Below, in pieces: positions 8,650 to 47,014 of a stretch of 64,000 bases of DNA. A program made the translations under genes and the position numbers. Where the stretch lies: the IMG/VR virus record IMGVR_UViG_3300023202_000383, positions 124,001 to 188,000 of that record. The stretch is one strand, 5' to 3'. The notes beneath the pieces are model-generated. The model saw nothing but the letters and a program-made list of their open reading frames with translations, was not told where the DNA came from and searched no databases. Position 1 is the first letter of the stretch. Every line of letters starts with the position of its first letter. The DNA is from a virus.

Positions 8650-8799
8650 CCCATTCTGCTGCCAAGGTCCTTACGCTCCCCCAAGTGAATTAGCCCCGCT
8701 CGGCCTCGAACCGAGTTTTCCGGATTTAAAGCCCGGCGTGCTAACCAGGTACACTACGGGGCCACTTCCCGGACCAAGGATGACGTCCAGCAGGATGGG
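8650..8799. repeat. imperfect inverted repeat flanking the minus-strand tRNA
   Basis: 8650-8661 pairs with 8788-8799 over 12 positions (one G-T), and GGTCC 8666-8670 with GGACC 8771-8775. They bracket the only minus-strand tRNA of the window. Confidence 0.5.
8691..8763 (-). tRNA. tRNA with anticodon TTA (predicted ochre suppressor)
   Basis: A full cloverleaf on the minus strand: acceptor GGCCCCG/CGGGGCT, D-stem GTGT/GCAC, anticodon stem CCGGG/TCCGG with loop CTTTAAA (C32, T33, TTA, A37, A38), 4-nt variable loop, T-stem CTCGG/CCGAG, loop TTCGAGG, discriminator A. All usual conserved positions (T8, A9, A14, GG in the D-loop, A21, T33, TTC, A58) are present. Anticodon UUA pairs with UAA. The acceptor stem is the same as that of tRNA-Arg(ACG) at 10344. 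Its amino acid is unknown. Confidence 0.75.
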
Positions 8800-11429: not shown

Positions 11430-11437
11430 CTATCAAA

Positions 11438-11463
11438 CCCCTCCCCCTAGGATGGGGGAGGGG
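11438..11463 (+). terminator. 10-bp GC-rich hairpin without U-tract
   Basis: CCCCTCCCCC (11438-11447) pairs exactly with GGGGGAGGGG (11454-11463) with a 6-nt loop. No T-run follows, so it may be a 3'-end stabiliser or processing signal instead of a terminator. Confidence 0.5.
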
Positions 11464-11512
11464 CTCCCATAGCTGGAGCCAAACTTAGACTTAAGCTCAA
11501 GTTAAATAAAAG

Positions 11513-11602
11513 CGTGACAGTGTGTGGTTCGAATCCCGCCCCCGGCATTCAAACTAACCCTAAGCCGGGGTAGCCCAATGGCAGAGGCAGCGCGAATAAA
11601 AG
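11513..11602 (+). tRNA. candidate permuted tRNA: 3' half (11513-11547) before 5' half (11564-11602)
   Basis: The upstream segment has a T-loop (TTCGAAT), T-stem strand CCCGC, acceptor strand CCCCGGC and discriminator A, followed by TT like the normal tRNAs. After a 16-nt linker comes GCCGGGG-TA, a D-arm (GCCC/AGGC) and GCGCG. GCCGGGG and CCCCGGC are fully complementary. AATAAAAG occurs both just before the 3' half (11505-11512) and at the end of the 5' half (11595-11602). The T-stem needs a bulged base and no clean anticodon can be read. A scrambled remnant is the alternative. Confidence 0.5.
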
Positions 11603-11661
11603 TCAAGTTATTGCTCCCAAGCTCAAGCGTGCTGTTCATCGTCTCGAACTCCAACCCCTGG

Positions 11662-11753
11662 ATGCCTGGTGCTGGTTCGAATCCGGCCCTCCCCTTTCTG
11701 GTTTGAAGCACGCGAAAACATCGGGGAGGTAGCTCAAGGGCAGAGCAAGGTAT
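11662..11753 (+). tRNA. second candidate permuted tRNA: 3' half (11662-11695) before 5' half (11723-11753)
   Basis: ATGCCT, T-arm GCTGG-TTCGAAT-CCGGC, acceptor CCTCCCC and discriminator T (then TT) precede, after a 27-nt linker, GGGGAGG-TA-GCTC-loop-GAGC-A-AGGTAT. The acceptor strands (GGGGAGG/CCTCCCC) and the anticodon-stem strands (AGGTAT/ATGCCT) are fully complementary, but the anticodon loop itself is not present in either half. Confidence 0.5.
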
Positions 11754-11824
11754 ATGAAGCTAAGGGAAGGATTAAACGGAAATGTGGCGATGAAGTGAGC
11801 AACAGGCCAGCGCGGATACAAAGA

Positions 11825-11861
11825 ACTATCTCTTGAAAAGATAGTGGACTTGTAATCCACT
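11825..11861 (+). other. two tandem anticodon-arm-like hairpins
   Basis: ACTATCT-CTTGAAA-AGATAGT (11825-11845) and AGTGGA-CTTGTAA-TCCACT (11843-11861) each have a 7-nt loop of form C-T-NNN-A-A, as in tRNA-Ser(TGA) and tRNA-Thr(TGT). No D- or T-arm adjoins them; they lie just downstream of the permuted tRNA halves. Confidence 0.5.
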
Positions 11862-11863
11862 CC

Positions 11864-11897
11864 GCCCCCGTAGCAGGGTATGCTACGGGGGCTTTTT
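11864..11897 (+). terminator. rho-independent terminator
   Basis: Perfect 11-bp stem GCCCCCGTAGC/GCTACGGGGGC with a 7-nt loop, followed by TTTTTAT. It ends the unit that contains the rearranged tRNA pieces. Confidence 0.9.
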
Positions 11898-12125: not shown

Positions 12126-12473
12126 ATGAATCTTCATAAAATAATTGCAAAGACCATTGTCGATGAATTGAATTTAAATTCTGCTTATATGGTAAAATCA
12201 AATAAACATAGGTCGTTCATAAGACAATATGGTACCACTAGAGAAGATGCGATTATAGAAAATGATAAAGTATATATAGGAATCAGATATAGAAGAATCG
12301 AATTCGACCCATGCGATCCAGATTTCGATCCGATAAGAATCGAATTCGACCCATGCGATCCAGATTTCGATCCGATAAGAATCGAATTCGACCCATGCGA
12401 TCCAGATTTCGATCCGATAATATTTTCATCAAAGATCGCAAACAAAATAGACAATTTACCGCCACTTCCTTAA
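12126..12473 (+). CDS. hypothetical protein with three identical 14-residue repeats
   Basis: 115 residues. Residues about 57-98 are three perfect copies of RIEFDPCDPDFDPI. The acidic Asp-Pro-rich repeat with one Cys per copy could bind metal, but that is a guess. The flanks (MNLHKIIAKTIVDEL and IFSSKIANKIDNLPP) are ordinary. The repeat is exact at DNA level, so it expanded recently. Confidence 0.6.
   Translation: MNLHKIIAKTIVDELNLNSAYMVKSNKHRSFIRQYGTTREDAIIENDKVYIGIRYRRIEFDPCDPDFDPIRIEFDPCDPDFDPIRIEFDPCDPDFDPIIFSSKIANKIDNLPPLP
12294..12419 (+). repeat. 42-bp tandem repeat, three perfect copies
   Basis: Copies at 12294-12335, 12336-12377 and 12378-12419 are identical and in frame with the gene at 12126. 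Confidence 0.95.
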
Positions 12474-34339: not shown

Positions 34340-37150
34340 TTAAAGGTTGATCTGGCATGTTCCACCAGCACATGCTGCTTCACCAGACAGGTCAGTGTTG
34401 TCTTCTTCCTCGTGGAAGTCTTCCCAATTTATTTTTGTATAATTTGAGATTAGCTCTTTCCACTTTGCTTCATCTGCGTCGGTGGATATTTCTTCAAATG
34501 GAGCGTTTTCATACTCTTTATCACCAGTAAATGCCAGCATTGATACGCCCGAGAAGTACTTCTTATTTTTCCACAAGAATTCTTTAACATCATCCCATTC
34601 ATCTTCCTTGACGCTTATCGTGTTAGACACATTGTGCGTGACCCCTGGAGATGAATCAGGCTTGGCGGTTCCGGGCGATACCCAATTCTTTTGAGTAGAC
34701 ATGACACGCTCAAGGAATTCAACAGCTGTGAAGTCCGATCTTATAAGTGCCCCATCTGGTGCCTTGACTGGGAACATTAGAAGATCTTTGTTCTTATTGA
34801 CAGTAATGCACATATGCGGATTATGTTTTTTAAATTCCTTGTATGCTTCGCATTGCGGATTTACTCTTATTCTTCTGAAATATCTTCTAGCGTGGTGGCA
34901 ATGATGGCCAGCACCTACGCCTCCAAGCACTAATGATGCGGTGCCGCTTGGTTTGACGCATGTTACTCTAGCTGCCGACCTTATTCCAATTTTGTTTGCG
35001 ATTTCAATATTGGTTTCGACAGCTATTTGAGCTGCTGTCTTCTGAACCTCCGGGCTTAGAGCAATATCTGGATTGTCCATTATACCAGTGAGAGATACTC
35101 CTAGAAGTGCCTCTCTAGTGCATATTGCTTCGCTGACCCATCCAAGATAACCAAAATCTGTATATCCTGCTTGAGCTGTGCCAAGTATAGCTGCTGCTTT
35201 TACTCTGTCATAAAACTCTTCTGTTGTGTCTGCAGTTGCACAATTTACCTCAGATAAATTACATTGCTGCCAGCCCCAGTAGGTTGAGCCGACTTTCAAT
35301 TTTGGGGTCTTTTTGCCATTCTCTTTGGCCCATTTTTCTGTCCATACTTTTATCTGTGGCGTGATTTCGAATTTTGGGTTCAACCCGATTTCGACGCATT
35401 GTCCTATTTGAATAGTATTGATGAATACTTCATTATTTGATGGTTCGTTTAGGCAGTACACCTGCTTCTTGCCAATATATTCAATAGCTTTAACTTTGGT
35501 ATAGTCGTAAGATCCCTGGGGATAAGCTAGCGGGATTCTATCGCCAATTTTTAAGTCTTTGCATTGTTTCCTGATTTTAGTCCTACCAGCAACAGCAGTA
35601 GCAGTAGATCCAGTACCGTTTTTGCGCCAGTTTCTCTTATCTTCAAGGACTATCCATTGATGATTGGAAGTAGTCTCTATTTGGTCACCATTCTGCAATG
35701 TTATTCTATATACCTTAGCAGATTTAGATGTCCTAAAAACATTCGATGCAATTGATCTACCGTGACTGTTGACTATATTCTGGACGCCATAATCATCGAG
35801 AGTCTTATGGCTAGCATATTCTTGGCGTCCTCCGTTTTCCCACAATTCTTCGATGGTCTTGTATCCATCGCTTGTCATTAGCTTCATGTTGCCAGTAAAG
35901 CACGGATTAGCCCCTGTATCTTCGTCATTAGTAAAATAAAATCCAGGCTCGCCCCATTGTCTTGTCGATTTGAATATTCTGTCGTATTGTCTCTTCTTTG
36001 TCTCTTTACGATGCAAAACAACAGAGTTGTTAGACCTAGCCCTCCATGGATGAGTCTCGCCCCATTTGCCAGTCTTGGCATTCATCATTTCGCCATCGTC
36101 AATAGAAAACAGGCATATCATTGCCGCTTCTCTGATGCCGCCAGCGTAAACAGCGTCTGCCAATGAGCACATGATGTCATAACATTCTATTGGTCTTAGG
36201 TGTCTTCCTTGTGCTAAGTCTAGAATGCTTCTGGATCTATCTAATGCCTGCTTAAGCGGTAAGTGTCCAGGTGCCTTCCCGCCGCTTGTTTTAAGAGGAG
36301 ATCCCTTAGGTCTTATCTTGCCGTATGAGAACTCTACGTATGTTCCCGTATGCATATAGGATCTGATCAATTCGTGTGCTGCATCTGCCCAGCCTTCGAT
36401 TGTGTCTGGTATAGCAAAATGTTTTACATTGTCACTATCGATTCTTTTAAGCTCTGGCAACTGATCTACATGCTGGAATTGAACAGAGAACCCAACTCCA
36501 GTTCCACTCAACAGCAACCAGAAAGCTTCTGCAAAAAATTTTGGTCTGTTGCAAACAGAGAATGAGCAGTTGTAGCCTTTAGCGTGATTCAATTCTTGAG
36601 CAGGTCCTCCGAATTGCATAGATCTCATTGATCCAAGCACCTGCTTGTCCCGTACCTTATCCATTACCCAATCTAATTCGCCCTTAATTTGCGGGTATCG
36701 GTCAGCGTGCATTTTGTGCACTCTGTCTACACACTCTTCATAGGTTTCTCGCCTTTTCAGATCTTCTCTGTAGCGAGAATATCGCATTCTTACTACGAGA
36801 TCTTCTATTATTGTTGGGTCTGGGTCTAGACGAGTCTTTCTTAGATCGTCTTTGTGTCTACTATATAATATGTATTCTTCTGCAACACCGTGAAATTGAT
36901 AATCCATCAGTTTACGTTTGACGATTTGTTGAATGTCGTCGACGCCTATTCGATTGTCGCTGTCTAATCTGACAAATGCTTCATCTTCTATCGCTTTTAA
37001 AAGATGATCGAATTTCCCATTAATGTCTGTGCTAGCATCTTTTGCTGCTTTTTGGATCGCTATCTTTATTTTGTCTGGATTCCAGTCTACTGATGTTTTC
37101 CCATCTCTTTTGATAACTTTAGCGGACGCCTTCGTAAGTGGTGACATCAT
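34340..37150 (-). CDS. nrdJ: class II (B12-dependent) ribonucleotide reductase with an intein
   Basis: 936 residues including an intein. N-terminal ATP-cone-like VIKRDGKTSVDWNPDKI; catalytic core with SMRSMQFGGPAQ, GYNCSFSVCN, LLLSGTGVGFSVQ and the intein-split active-site segment NP-CVEIGL; C-terminal VKPSGTASLVLGGVG and the redox tail ACAGGTCQ. It matches the monomeric RTPR/NrdJ type, which makes dNTPs with adenosylcobalamin and needs no oxygen. After removal of 168 intein residues the enzyme is 768 residues, normal for the family. It supplies precursors for phage DNA. Confidence 0.93.
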   Translation of the reverse strand: MMSPLTKASAKVIKRDGKTSVDWNPDKIKIAIQKAAKDASTDINGKFDHLLKAIEDEAFVRLDSDNRIGVDDIQQIVKRKLMDYQFHGVAEEYILYSRHKDDLRKTRLDPDPTIIEDLVVRMRYSRYREDLKRRETYEECVDRVHKMHADRYPQIKGELDWVMDKVRDKQVLGSMRSMQFGGPAQELNHAKGYNCSFSVCNRPKFFAEAFWLLLSGTGVGFSVQFQHVDQLPELKRIDSDNVKHFAIPDTIEGWADAAHELIRSYMHTGTYVEFSYGKIRPKGSPLKTSGGKAPGHLPLKQALDRSRSILDLAQGRHLRPIECYDIMCSLADAVYAGGIREAAMICLFSIDDGEMMNAKTGKWGETHPWRARSNNSVVLHRKETKKRQYDRIFKSTRQWGEPGFYFTNDEDTGANPCFTGNMKLMTSDGYKTIEELWENGGRQEYASHKTLDDYGVQNIVNSHGRSIASNVFRTSKSAKVYRITLQNGDQIETTSNHQWIVLEDKRNWRKNGTGSTATAVAGRTKIRKQCKDLKIGDRIPLAYPQGSYDYTKVKAIEYIGKKQVYCLNEPSNNEVFINTIQIGQCVEIGLNPKFEITPQIKVWTEKWAKENGKKTPKLKVGSTYWGWQQCNLSEVNCATADTTEEFYDRVKAAAILGTAQAGYTDFGYLGWVSEAICTREALLGVSLTGIMDNPDIALSPEVQKTAAQIAVETNIEIANKIGIRSAARVTCVKPSGTASLVLGGVGAGHHCHHARRYFRRIRVNPQCEAYKEFKKHNPHMCITVNKNKDLLMFPVKAPDGALIRSDFTAVEFLERVMSTQKNWVSPGTAKPDSSPGVTHNVSNTISVKEDEWDDVKEFLWKNKKYFSGVSMLAFTGDKEYENAPFEEISTDADEAKWKELISNYTKINWEDFHEEEDNTDLSGEAACAGGTCQINL
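35399..35902 (-). mobile_element. mini-intein in NrdJ (residues 417-584)
   Basis: Begins CFTGNMKLMTSDGYKTIEEL (block A, Cys1), block B TTSNHQW with the TxxH motif, and ends VYCLNEPSNNEVFINTIQ, then IGQ, followed by extein Cys585. No endonuclease domain. The C-terminal residues are Gly-Gln instead of His-Asn. Inserted exactly before the active-site Cys, so the enzyme is inactive until splicing. Confidence 0.85.
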
Positions 37151-41614: not shown

Positions 41615-43234
41615 ATGCCGAAGGATATCATTTTTGATGAGTCAGTTAGAAGCAAGATCCAAGACGGTCTCAACAAGCTGGCCCAAGCAGTCAGAGTGAC
41701 TTTGGGGCCGACTGGCCGTGTTGTCATGATTGAAAGGGATTTTGGAGACCCTATCATAACGAAGGATGGGGTCACTGTAGCCAAACACATAGATCTTGAA
41801 GATAAGCTGTCGAATATGGCTGCAATGATGGTGCGTCAGGCGGCGTCCAAAACTGCCTCTGAGGCTGGAGATGGCACAACGACTGCTACTATTTATACTG
41901 AAGCAATATATGGTGCTGGTATAAAGAGTGTTCTGGCTGGGGCTAATCCTCAAGATCTCAAAAATGGGATGAATAAAGCTGTACAGGCTATCGTCCATCA
42001 ACTTGAGAGAATGGCTAAGCCTATAACCAGCACAGAAGAGATAAAGCAGGTCGCTGCGTGCAGCGCCAATCAAGACAATATTATAGGGTCTATAATTGCC
42101 GACGCTATGGATAAAGTCGGCAAAGATGGCGTTGTCACAATAGAAGAAGGCAAGACGTTGGATACTTCGGTATCTGTTGTCGATGGTTATCAATTCGATA
42201 AAGGATATATGAGCCAACATTTTGTGACCAATAAGGAAAAGATGGTCGCTGAATACGAGGAGCCCTATATACTGTTGAGCGAAGATCGAATCGACGATCT
42301 TAAAAGCCTCTTGGGGATGCTTGAGCTCGCAATCAAGAAGGGCCAAAGGCCGATAGTTATCATAGCCGATGATTTTGATGATACGGTCATGACGACTTTG
42401 ACTGTCAATCACTTAAGGGGGTCGTTGAAAGTGTTGGCTATAAAGTCCCCCGGCTTTGGCGACAGACGTAAGCAGATGATGGAAGATATAGCAACAATAA
42501 CTGGTGCGAAGGTCTTCTCCAAGGCATCTGGCGTGACAATGAAGAATCCTAGCATAGACGCTTTTGGGTCGTGCGAAAAGATCACTGCGTCTGATGATTC
42601 CACTATTATAGTGGAAGGTGCTGGCGATGAATCTGAAATAGAAGAAAGAATAAATCAGATCAGGACTCAGCTCGAATCTGTTGGTGGCGATTTTGATAAA
42701 GAAAAGCTCCAAGAAAGGCTTTCTAAGCTGATAGGCGGCGTTGCTAGAATTGTCGTCGGCGGTGCTACAGAAGTTGAAGTTAGAGAAAAGAAAGATCGCA
42801 TCGACGACGCTTTACATGCTTGCAAAGCTGCTGTTCAAGAAGGAATATTGCCTGGCGGTGGTGTTGCTGTTCTACGAGCTTTCCAATCTGTTTCTCTGGA
42901 GTTTGATTCTAGAGATGAGGAAATGGGAGTTGGCATAATATTCAAAGCCATAGAAGATCCAATAAGGCAAATCGCCAAGAATACTGGCAAGGATGATGGT
43001 GCTGTTCTCGCTAAAGTGATGGAAAGCAGCGATGCCAACTTTGGGTTCAATGCTGCCAAGGATTCCTTCGAAAATCTGATCGACGCTGGCATAATCGTCC
43101 CAGCCAAGGTTGAGAGGATTGCATTGCAAAATGCCGCATCTATAGCTGCCTTACTTCTTGCTACGGATTGCATGATATCTATAATTCCTGAAGTCGCACC
43201 CGCACAGCCTGACGGGATATATCCAGGGATGTAG
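41615..43234 (+). CDS. groEL: GroEL-type chaperonin subunit
   Basis: AGGAG before ATG 41615; 539 residues, normal length. Family marks: VTLGPTGRVVMIERDFG, ITKDGVTVAKHI, SEAGDGTTTATIYTEAI (ATP site), GFGDRRKQMMEDIA, GGVARIVVGGATEVEV, GILPGGGVAVL. Apical helices are present. The C-terminus ends DGIYPGM, without the usual Gly-Gly-Met repeats. No GroES is seen nearby. Phage GroELs help fold phage proteins, some without a co-chaperonin. Confidence 0.96.
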   Translation: MPKDIIFDESVRSKIQDGLNKLAQAVRVTLGPTGRVVMIERDFGDPIITKDGVTVAKHIDLEDKLSNMAAMMVRQAASKTASEAGDGTTTATIYTEAIYGAGIKSVLAGANPQDLKNGMNKAVQAIVHQLERMAKPITSTEEIKQVAACSANQDNIIGSIIADAMDKVGKDGVVTIEEGKTLDTSVSVVDGYQFDKGYMSQHFVTNKEKMVAEYEEPYILLSEDRIDDLKSLLGMLELAIKKGQRPIVIIADDFDDTVMTTLTVNHLRGSLKVLAIKSPGFGDRRKQMMEDIATITGAKVFSKASGVTMKNPSIDAFGSCEKITASDDSTIIVEGAGDESEIEERINQIRTQLESVGGDFDKEKLQERLSKLIGGVARIVVGGATEVEVREKKDRIDDALHACKAAVQEGILPGGGVAVLRAFQSVSLEFDSRDEEMGVGIIFKAIEDPIRQIAKNTGKDDGAVLAKVMESSDANFGFNAAKDSFENLIDAGIIVPAKVERIALQNAASIAALLLATDCMISIIPEVAPAQPDGIYPGM

Positions 43235-45823: not shown

Positions 45824-47014
45824 ATGCCATTGGTCAAAGTACTACCAACTGCTAATTATAAAGAACTTCCAAAATTAAAGCAGTTCACAAAAGGTTCTGT
45901 TGGCATCGACCTATATTGCGCATCCGATGCCACAATCATGCCCAGGCAAAAAATAGATATTCCATGTGCTATAAAATTAGAATTGCCAAAAGGGTATTAT
46001 GCTAGGATTACCGGCAGATCTTCATCATTCATGCTTGGTATAGATATTAGAGAAGGCATAATCGACCAAGACTACAGGGGCGAGATTTATATTGGTGCCT
46101 ATAATTTTAGCGATGAGACGGTCACGATTAGCAGAGGTGACCGGCTAGCTCAAATGCTAATATCAAAATACGAGGATATAAGCATTGAGTACGTTGAATC
46201 AATAAATGATACTCAGAGGGGAGACGGGGGTTTTGGCAGCACAGATGTTACTGTTGGGGTAGAACATGCCAATTTTATCAATAAAGAATTCTTAGATGAA
46301 TTCTACATAAAAAAAGGGCTGTCTGCTGCCGAAATCGCCAAGAGATTCAACGTTGGCAAAACAACAGTACTGAGGAAAATGACAGAAAATGGTGTTGCCG
46401 CCTTAAATTCGTGGGAAAGACATCCACCAGAATTAGACGAATTACAGAGCATGCTAATTGCCGGGTCTATAATCGGCGATTTATCCATCAAGCATAGCGA
46501 GGCTTGGACGCATGCCAGGTGTGACTTCGCACACGGGCCTAATCAAATAGACTACTTAAGATATAAAAAAGACATAATGGCGAAATTCGTTACAATGGAC
46601 ATAAATTCTAAATATAACAAAGAATTCGATTCCGTCACTTTTTATTTCTCGACCATCACACATCCAATATTCACGCGACTGAGGGAGGAATATTATCCTA
46701 ATGGTGTGAAAGTGGTGACCGATAAGCTTTTGAATAGATTGAATCCTTTTTCACTATCTGTTTGGTATATGGACGATGGGTCTCTGCACATTAGTAATAG
46801 CAATAGTAGGTGGATATCTATGCATGTGGAGGGGTTTGACCCCGACTCACAAGTTAGAATCTTGTCGTGGCTTAATGATAACAGGTATGAGGCTAAATTC
46901 AGAAACGACGGGAAAGGCCATAGGTTTATCGTTCTCAATTCGATTGGTACAAGAAGGCTTATAGACACAGTAGAACCACACATCATCCCATGCATGCAAT
47001 ACAAAATTAGGTAA
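45824..47014 (+). CDS. dut: dUTPase fused to a LAGLIDADG homing endonuclease, 396 aa
   Basis: Residues 1-145 form a full dUTPase: motif 1 GSVGIDLYCA, 2 TGRSSSFML, 3 GIIDQDYRGEIYIG, 4 ISRGDRLAQMLI, 5 RGDGGFGSTDV. It converts dUTP to dUMP. Immediately after motif 5 follows an HTH (LSAAEIAKRFNVGKTTVLRK) and a LAGLIDADG-type endonuclease with LIAGSIIGDLSI and LSVWYMDDGSLHI. The fusion sits between the N- and C-terminal remnants of another dUTPase. Confidence 0.88.
   Translation: MPLVKVLPTANYKELPKLKQFTKGSVGIDLYCASDATIMPRQKIDIPCAIKLELPKGYYARITGRSSSFMLGIDIREGIIDQDYRGEIYIGAYNFSDETVTISRGDRLAQMLISKYEDISIEYVESINDTQRGDGGFGSTDVTVGVEHANFINKEFLDEFYIKKGLSAAEIAKRFNVGKTTVLRKMTENGVAALNSWERHPPELDELQSMLIAGSIIGDLSIKHSEAWTHARCDFAHGPNQIDYLRYKKDIMAKFVTMDINSKYNKEFDSVTFYFSTITHPIFTRLREEYYPNGVKVVTDKLLNRLNPFSLSVWYMDDGSLHISNSNSRWISMHVEGFDPDSQVRILSWLNDNRYEAKFRNDGKGHRFIVLNSIGTRRLIDTVEPHIIPCMQYKIR

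Follow-up and report, generated by a model that had tools for sequence, protein, structure and literature searches.

A putative two-headed tRNA-mimic RNA beside the DUF7873 gene in phages of very different hosts

YrlA is a bacterial Y RNA in which a basal stem, bearing a tRNA-like domain at its end, binds the Ro60-like protein Rsr (PMC8394870). The tRNA-like effector domain has been reported to bind PNPase (PMC8394870), in its solved structure (PDB 6CU1) the order of a tRNA is circularly permuted (PMC13355120), and the idea that YrlA competes with tRNA-targeting nucleases has been raised (PMC7790460). For phages, the parts of PMC12282133 considered here describe highly expressed candidate Y RNAs in Listeria phage CKA15, which are unannotated and lie near tRNA genes and the gene for an Rsr-like protein.

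Here, we describe a locus that resembles these systems in architecture. Our window is the whole stretch of DNA analysed, 64,000 nucleotides in length (positions 124,001 to 188,000 of IMG/VR record IMGVR_UViG_3300023202_000383). Directly after a gene of the DUF7873 family it contains two permuted tRNA-like units, and we consider it likely that these belong to a two-headed, YrlA-like tRNA mimic to which the DUF7873 protein would bind.

Two permuted units and their partner gene

A sequence-only reading of this DNA had called the first element, unit A, a circularly permuted tRNA gene. On the plus strand its T-arm/acceptor half (11513-11547) indeed precedes its acceptor/D-arm half (11564-11594), and the acceptor strands GCCGGGG and CCCCGGC match perfectly (7/7 pairs), as that reading had said; the T stem has one extra base, the bulged T11525. 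A covariance search with R1, a model built from 55 units of relatives and none from the window, returned unit A at 11513-11600 (55.0 bits, E 2.1e-15) together with a second element of the same design, unit B, at 11662-11758 (54.1 bits, E 4.2e-15). Both lie 3' of the DUF7873 open reading frame (Table 1).

Table 1. Features of the DUF7873 locus, in window coordinates
Feature	Position	Strand	Basis
DUF7873 protein gene, 250 aa	10677..11429	+	Pfam PF25283, E 1.1e-95, 320.5 bits
G+C-rich hairpin (CCCCTCCCCC/GGGGGAGGGG), between DUF7873 stop codon and RNA	11438..11463	+	read from sequence
Unit A basal stem, 5' strand (GGAGC CA AACTT A GACTT)	11475..11492	+	pairs with 11600-11617 in minimum-free-energy fold and centroid; flank pairing, 49 loci, z -6.0
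Unit A anticodon-stem 3' strand (CGTG)	11513..11516	+	pairs with CGCG 11591-11594
Unit A T arm (GTG[T]GG TTCGAAT CCCGC, one bulged T)	11522..11539	+	sequence; R1 alignment
Unit A acceptor 3' strand CCCCGGC (11540-11546) and discriminator A11547	11540..11547	+	7/7 pairs with 11564-11570; covaries across relatives
Unit A acceptor 5' strand GCCGGGG	11564..11570	+	7/7 pairs; covariation; R1
Unit A D arm (TA GCCCAATGGCAGAGGC)	11571..11588	+	R1 alignment
Unit A anticodon-stem 5' strand (CGCG)	11591..11594	+	pairs with CGTG 11513-11516; fold
Unit A basal stem, 3' strand (AAGTC AAGTT ATT GCTCC), conserved UUAUYGCUC motif	11600..11617	+	flank pairing; fold
Unit B basal stem, 5' strand	11638..11657	+	fold of 11605-11810; duplex with 3' flank; flank pairing, 49 loci, z -9.3
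Unit B anticodon-stem 3' strand (ATGCCT)	11662..11667	+	pairs with AGGTAT 11748-11753
Unit B T arm (GCTGG TTCGAAT CCGGC)	11671..11687	+	R1 54.1 bits, E 4.2e-15
Unit B acceptor 3' strand CCTCCCC and discriminator T	11688..11695	+	7/7 pairs with 11723-11729
Unit B acceptor 5' strand GGGGAGG	11723..11729	+	7/7 pairs with acceptor 3' strand
Unit B D arm (TA GCTC AAGGGCA GAGC)	11730..11746	+	R1; within Rfam YrlA match 11651-11773
Unit B anticodon-stem 5' strand (AGGTAT)	11748..11753	+	pairs with ATGCCT 11662-11667
Unit B basal stem, 3' strand, conserved UUAAACG motif at 11772-11778	11764..11792	+	flank pairing; duplex; fold
Two overlapping anticodon-arm-like hairpins, loops CTTGAAA and CTTGTAA	11825..11861	+	sequence; relatives
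End hairpin, 12 bp, GGGTA loop, then T5; terminator-like	11864..11897	+	sequence; relatives

ARAGORN reports 26 tRNA genes in the window, neither unit being among them, and both units also go unreported by Rfam at gathering score. A group I permuted intron-exon arrangement was set aside, as no intron family matched at gathering score. Two further details noted in the sequence-only reading stand in part. A TT does follow A11547, and most rather than every one of the plus-strand tRNAs share it. The 8-nt repeat AATAAAAG is present at 11505-11512 and 11595-11602; however, it is probably no scar of a duplication, since the window has 10 copies of it where 5.4 would be expected, and the relatives compared have no flanking repeat of this kind.

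The units are bracketed by smaller hairpins. GodonK and Racecar also have hairpins at the place of the one that lies between gene and RNA, and anticodon-arm-like hairpins follow unit B in 20/50 relatives (5% of shuffles), some of them being parts of complete ordinary tRNAs. We infer that the whole, from roughly 11433 to 11897, makes up one structured phage RNA of ~450 nt, produced as a single transcript. An RGGNUAY-like loop at the end hairpin is kept in relatives on stems of unrelated sequence, so that this hairpin and its counterparts are conserved beyond the need of a plain terminator.

The assignment of the neighbouring protein to DUF7873 lies above the Pfam gathering score (320.5 bits vs 27). 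Its AlphaFold2 model is confident (pLDDT 97.0), and neither Foldseek (best E 0.017, low TM-scores) nor VIA-align (Z at most 7.1) gave a convincing fold relative. There is no family for DUF7873 in PHROGs or NCBIfam, a single weak match in PADLOC (E 0.039), no copy in 194 genomes of one bacterial phylum, and no mention in the literature searched.

The window has several other features of note. In an open reading frame at 12126-12473, a 42-nt unit is repeated in tandem three times and nearly perfectly (protein repeat RIEFDPCDPDFDPI). A “tRNA-Stop” reported by ARAGORN at 8690-8764 has the anticodon TTA and may be an ochre suppressor; it lies on the minus strand, whereas the other tRNAs lie on the plus strand. 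By eye, we also noted a ribonucleotide-reductase-like frame with an apparent intein-like insertion (CFTGNMKLMTSDGYKTIEEL...) at 34340-37150, a GroEL-like chaperonin gene at 41615-43234, and a dUTPase-like frame with an apparent fusion to a homing-endonuclease-like domain at 45824-47014.

Spread and covariation among relatives

Relatives of DUF7873 were found in 73 phage records, 364 IMG/VR stretches (of which 80 were kept), and four actinobacterial replicons. The gene and both units occur together in phages of Gordonia, Arthrobacter, Rhodococcus, Pseudanabaena, and Klebsiella, in dozens of IMG/VR contigs, and in Streptomyces/Nonomuraea replicons (three loci), so the homologues in related phages that the sequence-only reading had suggested looking for do exist, at the DUF7873 loci of many phages. 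In the phage records examined, the two-unit RNA is unannotated as such, with only calls of single tRNAs or small hypothetical proteins over parts of it.

The loci were scanned by one criterion, the permuted order of T arm, acceptor, and D arm. Of the matches, 142 fell within 900 nt downstream of DUF7873 (86 kb searched); the rest of these loci, 449 kb, gave 21, and the other strand gave 2. Where at least 700 nt were available (94 loci), 51 loci had two matches, 32 had one, 10 had none, and one had three. Apart from its own shadow open reading frames, the only recurrent neighbour of the RNA in 99 loci is DUF7873, no other protein family recurring beside it. Three loci deserve separate mention. 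At L009, both units lie upstream of DUF7873 rather than downstream (2157-2385; 71.6 and 51.2 bits). At L005 (Enterococcus phage PEf771), ~1.7 kb without annotated genes (1199-2893) give permuted tRNA-like matches, the best of 40.3 bits at 2339-2412, and may contain a further variant of the element. L025, the sole locus from a genome contig scan, was discarded, as DUF7873 was not confirmed there.

A position directly downstream of the gene in most loci is also what would be expected of a structured 3' untranslated region of the DUF7873 mRNA, acting only in cis as an RNase P/RNase Z processing or stability signal. We regard this as very improbable: the L009 units stand upstream of the gene, and two different heads with conserved internal motifs exceed what a cleavage signal would need.

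The acceptor stems themselves differ almost everywhere between loci, yet they remain complementary. All seven pairs form in 107/131 units, compared with 2.5% when the 5' strands are swapped between loci; for this count the T and D arms were picked blind to the acceptor, to avoid the bias of an acceptor-based scanner. There are 82 distinct stems, with several pair types at every position. Unit A of the window is outside this set because of its bulged T stem, and R1 still finds it. Please note that alignment A4 was selected for paired stems, and pair counts drawn from it are descriptive only.

These stems bear on the origin that the sequence-only reading had put forward, a tandem tRNA copy that had lost its outer halves. 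Many tRNA genes lie in this region, and a T arm followed by a D arm is what tandem tRNAs yield. However, the real tandem-tRNA junctions of the window, which are the next best R1 matches, reach at most 33.4 bits and have mispaired acceptors, the 82 stems covary, and no normal-order copy of unit A was found in the 256,507-base record to which the window belongs. As other matches to unit A in that record are T-arm-like stretches of 17-24 nt only, its being a decayed duplicate is unsupported; so is the loss of outer halves from a tandem copy, because very divergent phages have the same layout. On the junction scores and the missing normal copy we rejected decay of tandem tRNAs, and give it, or mere chance, next to no credence.

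Basal stems, acceptor ends, and a possible particle

In a tRNA, the outer ends of such units would make the anticodon arm. Here, the flanks of the units prolong the anticodon stem into a basal stem. Across 49 loci, duplex energies of a locus's own flanks beat those of swapped flanks by z -6.0 for unit A and z -9.3 for unit B, as against -2.5 to 0 for other segment pairs. The anticodon stems at the unit ends vary in length and have no conserved loop, and the flank pairing continues past them. For unit A, the basal motif sets GGAGC opposite UUAUYGCUCC; for unit B, there is a conserved internal loop (5' AAUCGA vs 3' UUAAACG), and a helix inside the motif covaries, with 6/6 pairs in 33/45 cases vs 4% by chance. 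The fold of window positions 11470-11625 contains the GGAGC/GCUCC, AACUU/AAGUU, and GACUU/AAGUC helices, the CGUG/CGCG anticodon stem, and the acceptor helix, the outer helix of unit A being short and interrupted in the window. The case for the basal stems depends on comparison, since neither single-sequence fold stands out in stability (z -1.8 for unit A, +1.1 for unit B). A peptide or tag (KLRLKLKL) is a less likely reading of the 6-nt periodic ARNYTN tract that flanks unit A: its two flanks form pairs with one another, and by class the pattern is complementary to itself.

The acceptor ends have their own regularities. The discriminator is A in 36/48 distinct unit A sequences and U in 31/48 distinct unit B sequences, and the acceptor loops, mostly with T or A at -1, usually open with N-C-C/U (NCCA in 35-40% of distinct units). 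Across 44 loci, which are not phylogenetically independent, NCCA in the units also correlates with CCA encoded in the ordinary tRNAs of each locus (rho 0.39, p 0.009). Given these loop starts and this correlation, the acceptor ends may be processed like those of tRNAs.

It is from such ends, and from the intact and covarying T, acceptor, and D arms, that one would argue for true circularly permuted tRNA genes. In such genes, known from some algae and archaea, the outer ends are cut and ligated at the anticodon arm, and the acceptor loop is opened by RNase P together with 3' processing to give an ordinary tRNA. Halves joined in this manner should give a recoverable anticodon loop; instead, no such loop is conserved and the flanks pair well past a 5-bp anticodon stem. 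RtcB was not found in the window's own 256,507-base record, and both units sit at fixed places by DUF7873, which is unexpected of interchangeable tRNA genes. We consider this origin of ordinary tRNAs quite improbable. What the data support of the original call is the permuted topology, which is conserved and under strong selection, but not the joining of the halves into a working tRNA.

The same loop starts (NCCA or NCU, mostly after T or A) and the CCA correlation would suit a multi-piece RNA, in which RNase P and 3' nucleases cut each acceptor loop and the fragments, perhaps with charged CCA ends, are held by the acceptor stems. Two-piece, or permuted, tmRNA has its acceptor strands in the same order as the phage units. 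However, tmRNA is without a D stem, which the phage units have, ARAGORN reports no tmRNA in the window, and no conserved tag reading frame was established. A multi-piece RNA in its own right is unlikely, although such cutting is compatible with a tRNA mimic as an added processing step.

For the two-headed mimic that we favour, each head would run from T arm and acceptor 3' strand through a short loop to acceptor 5' strand and D arm, and the outer ends would pair mutually into a basal stem with conserved internal loops. The permutation would then be the functional topology, and splicing would be unnecessary because the design is that of YrlA-type bacterial Y RNAs; a mimic without splicing is also simpler than a permuted tRNA gene. 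As Ro60 does on Y RNAs, DUF7873 would most likely bind the conserved basal-stem motifs, and protein and RNA would most likely form a particle similar in design to bacterial Y RNAs. The two heads, usually A vs U in discriminator, could serve to hold or titrate proteins that read the elbow and acceptor of tRNAs, for which host ribonucleases and processing enzymes (PNPase, RNase P, RNase Z) or tRNA-targeting defence enzymes are candidates. Their capture might redirect RNA decay, as has been proposed for Rsr/Y RNA/PNPase, or compete with tRNA-targeting nucleases. Counting against the mimic, a closed YrlA-like head would seem not to need NCCA/NCU tRNA-like ends, and DUF7873 has no clear fold relative, so its RNA binding stays putative. 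More tentatively, DUF7873 and its RNA may be a hitherto undescribed phage RNP, a counterpart of the Y RNA system that is independent of Ro60, whose heads (usually A73 and U73) capture two different tRNA-recognising enzymes, thereby redirecting RNA decay or shielding phage tRNAs from host tRNA-targeting defence.

Relation to described systems

The Rfam model of YrlA (RF02553) matches unit B of the window at 11651-11773 with 26.5 bits, and unit B of several DUF7873-linked relatives with 35-41 bits (at most 40.8), all below its gathering score of 69. In the cmscan alignment, unit B has the permuted head of the YrlA type (T arm, acceptor, D arm), and the flank pairing (z -6.0 and -9.3) gives a basal stem of the YrlA type in place of an anticodon loop. 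TROVE (Ro60, PF05731), whose gene would be expected in the genome of a YrlA RNA and usually close to it, has no match in the window's own 256,507-base record, which is perhaps a fragment. With no match at the Rfam cut-off and no Ro60 gene found in that record, the RNA is best called YrlA-like in architecture, as judged from sequence comparison, and not a member of YrlA. TROVE is present in 8/51 records with DUF7873, and R1 matches Ro60-adjacent phage RNAs at 54.9-55.8 bits. Because some DUF7873-carrying phages have permuted YrlA-like units adjoining TROVE (L106, 2903-3174, minus strand; L108, 2772-3184, plus strand), the two systems can coexist.

A two-gene module of DUF7873 and a previously unannotated structured RNA is found in phages of very different hosts. 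It gives DUF7873 a likely RNA partner and suggests that phage tRNA-mimic RNPs go beyond Ro60/Y RNA. What is called a “permuted tRNA gene” in a phage can turn out to be a Y-RNA-like mimic, and the cultured phages GodonK, Racecar, and FBKp24 offer a setting in which to ask what phages gain from such permuted look-alikes of tRNA.

Set beside the CKA15 RNAs, so far as the parts of their description considered here extend, the phage RNA is likewise unannotated and near tRNA genes and, putatively, the gene of an RNA-binding protein; the partner there is Ro60-like, those parts give no RNA structure, and the likeness is one of analogy only. With two-piece tmRNA it shares the acceptor 3' strand before the 5' strand in the transcript, and it differs in having a D stem and two tRNA-like units, with no tag reading frame identified. 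Like the permuted tRNA genes of algae and archaea (Soma 2014, PMC3978253), the units place the 3' half first, have little sequence between the halves, and keep the acceptor stem intact, whereas no anticodon loop and apparently no joinable junction is conserved at their ends, their flanks form a long stem, and two of them are tied to one protein gene. With YrlA, finally, they share the head order of T arm, acceptor 3' strand, acceptor 5' strand, and D arm, and a basal stem where tRNA would have its anticodon stem; unlike YrlA, the phage RNA has two heads per locus, linkage to DUF7873, an acceptor of 7 bp in the model, loops with NCCA/NCU-like starts, and basal motifs of its own, AAUCGA/UUAAACG and GGAGC..UUAUYGCUC.
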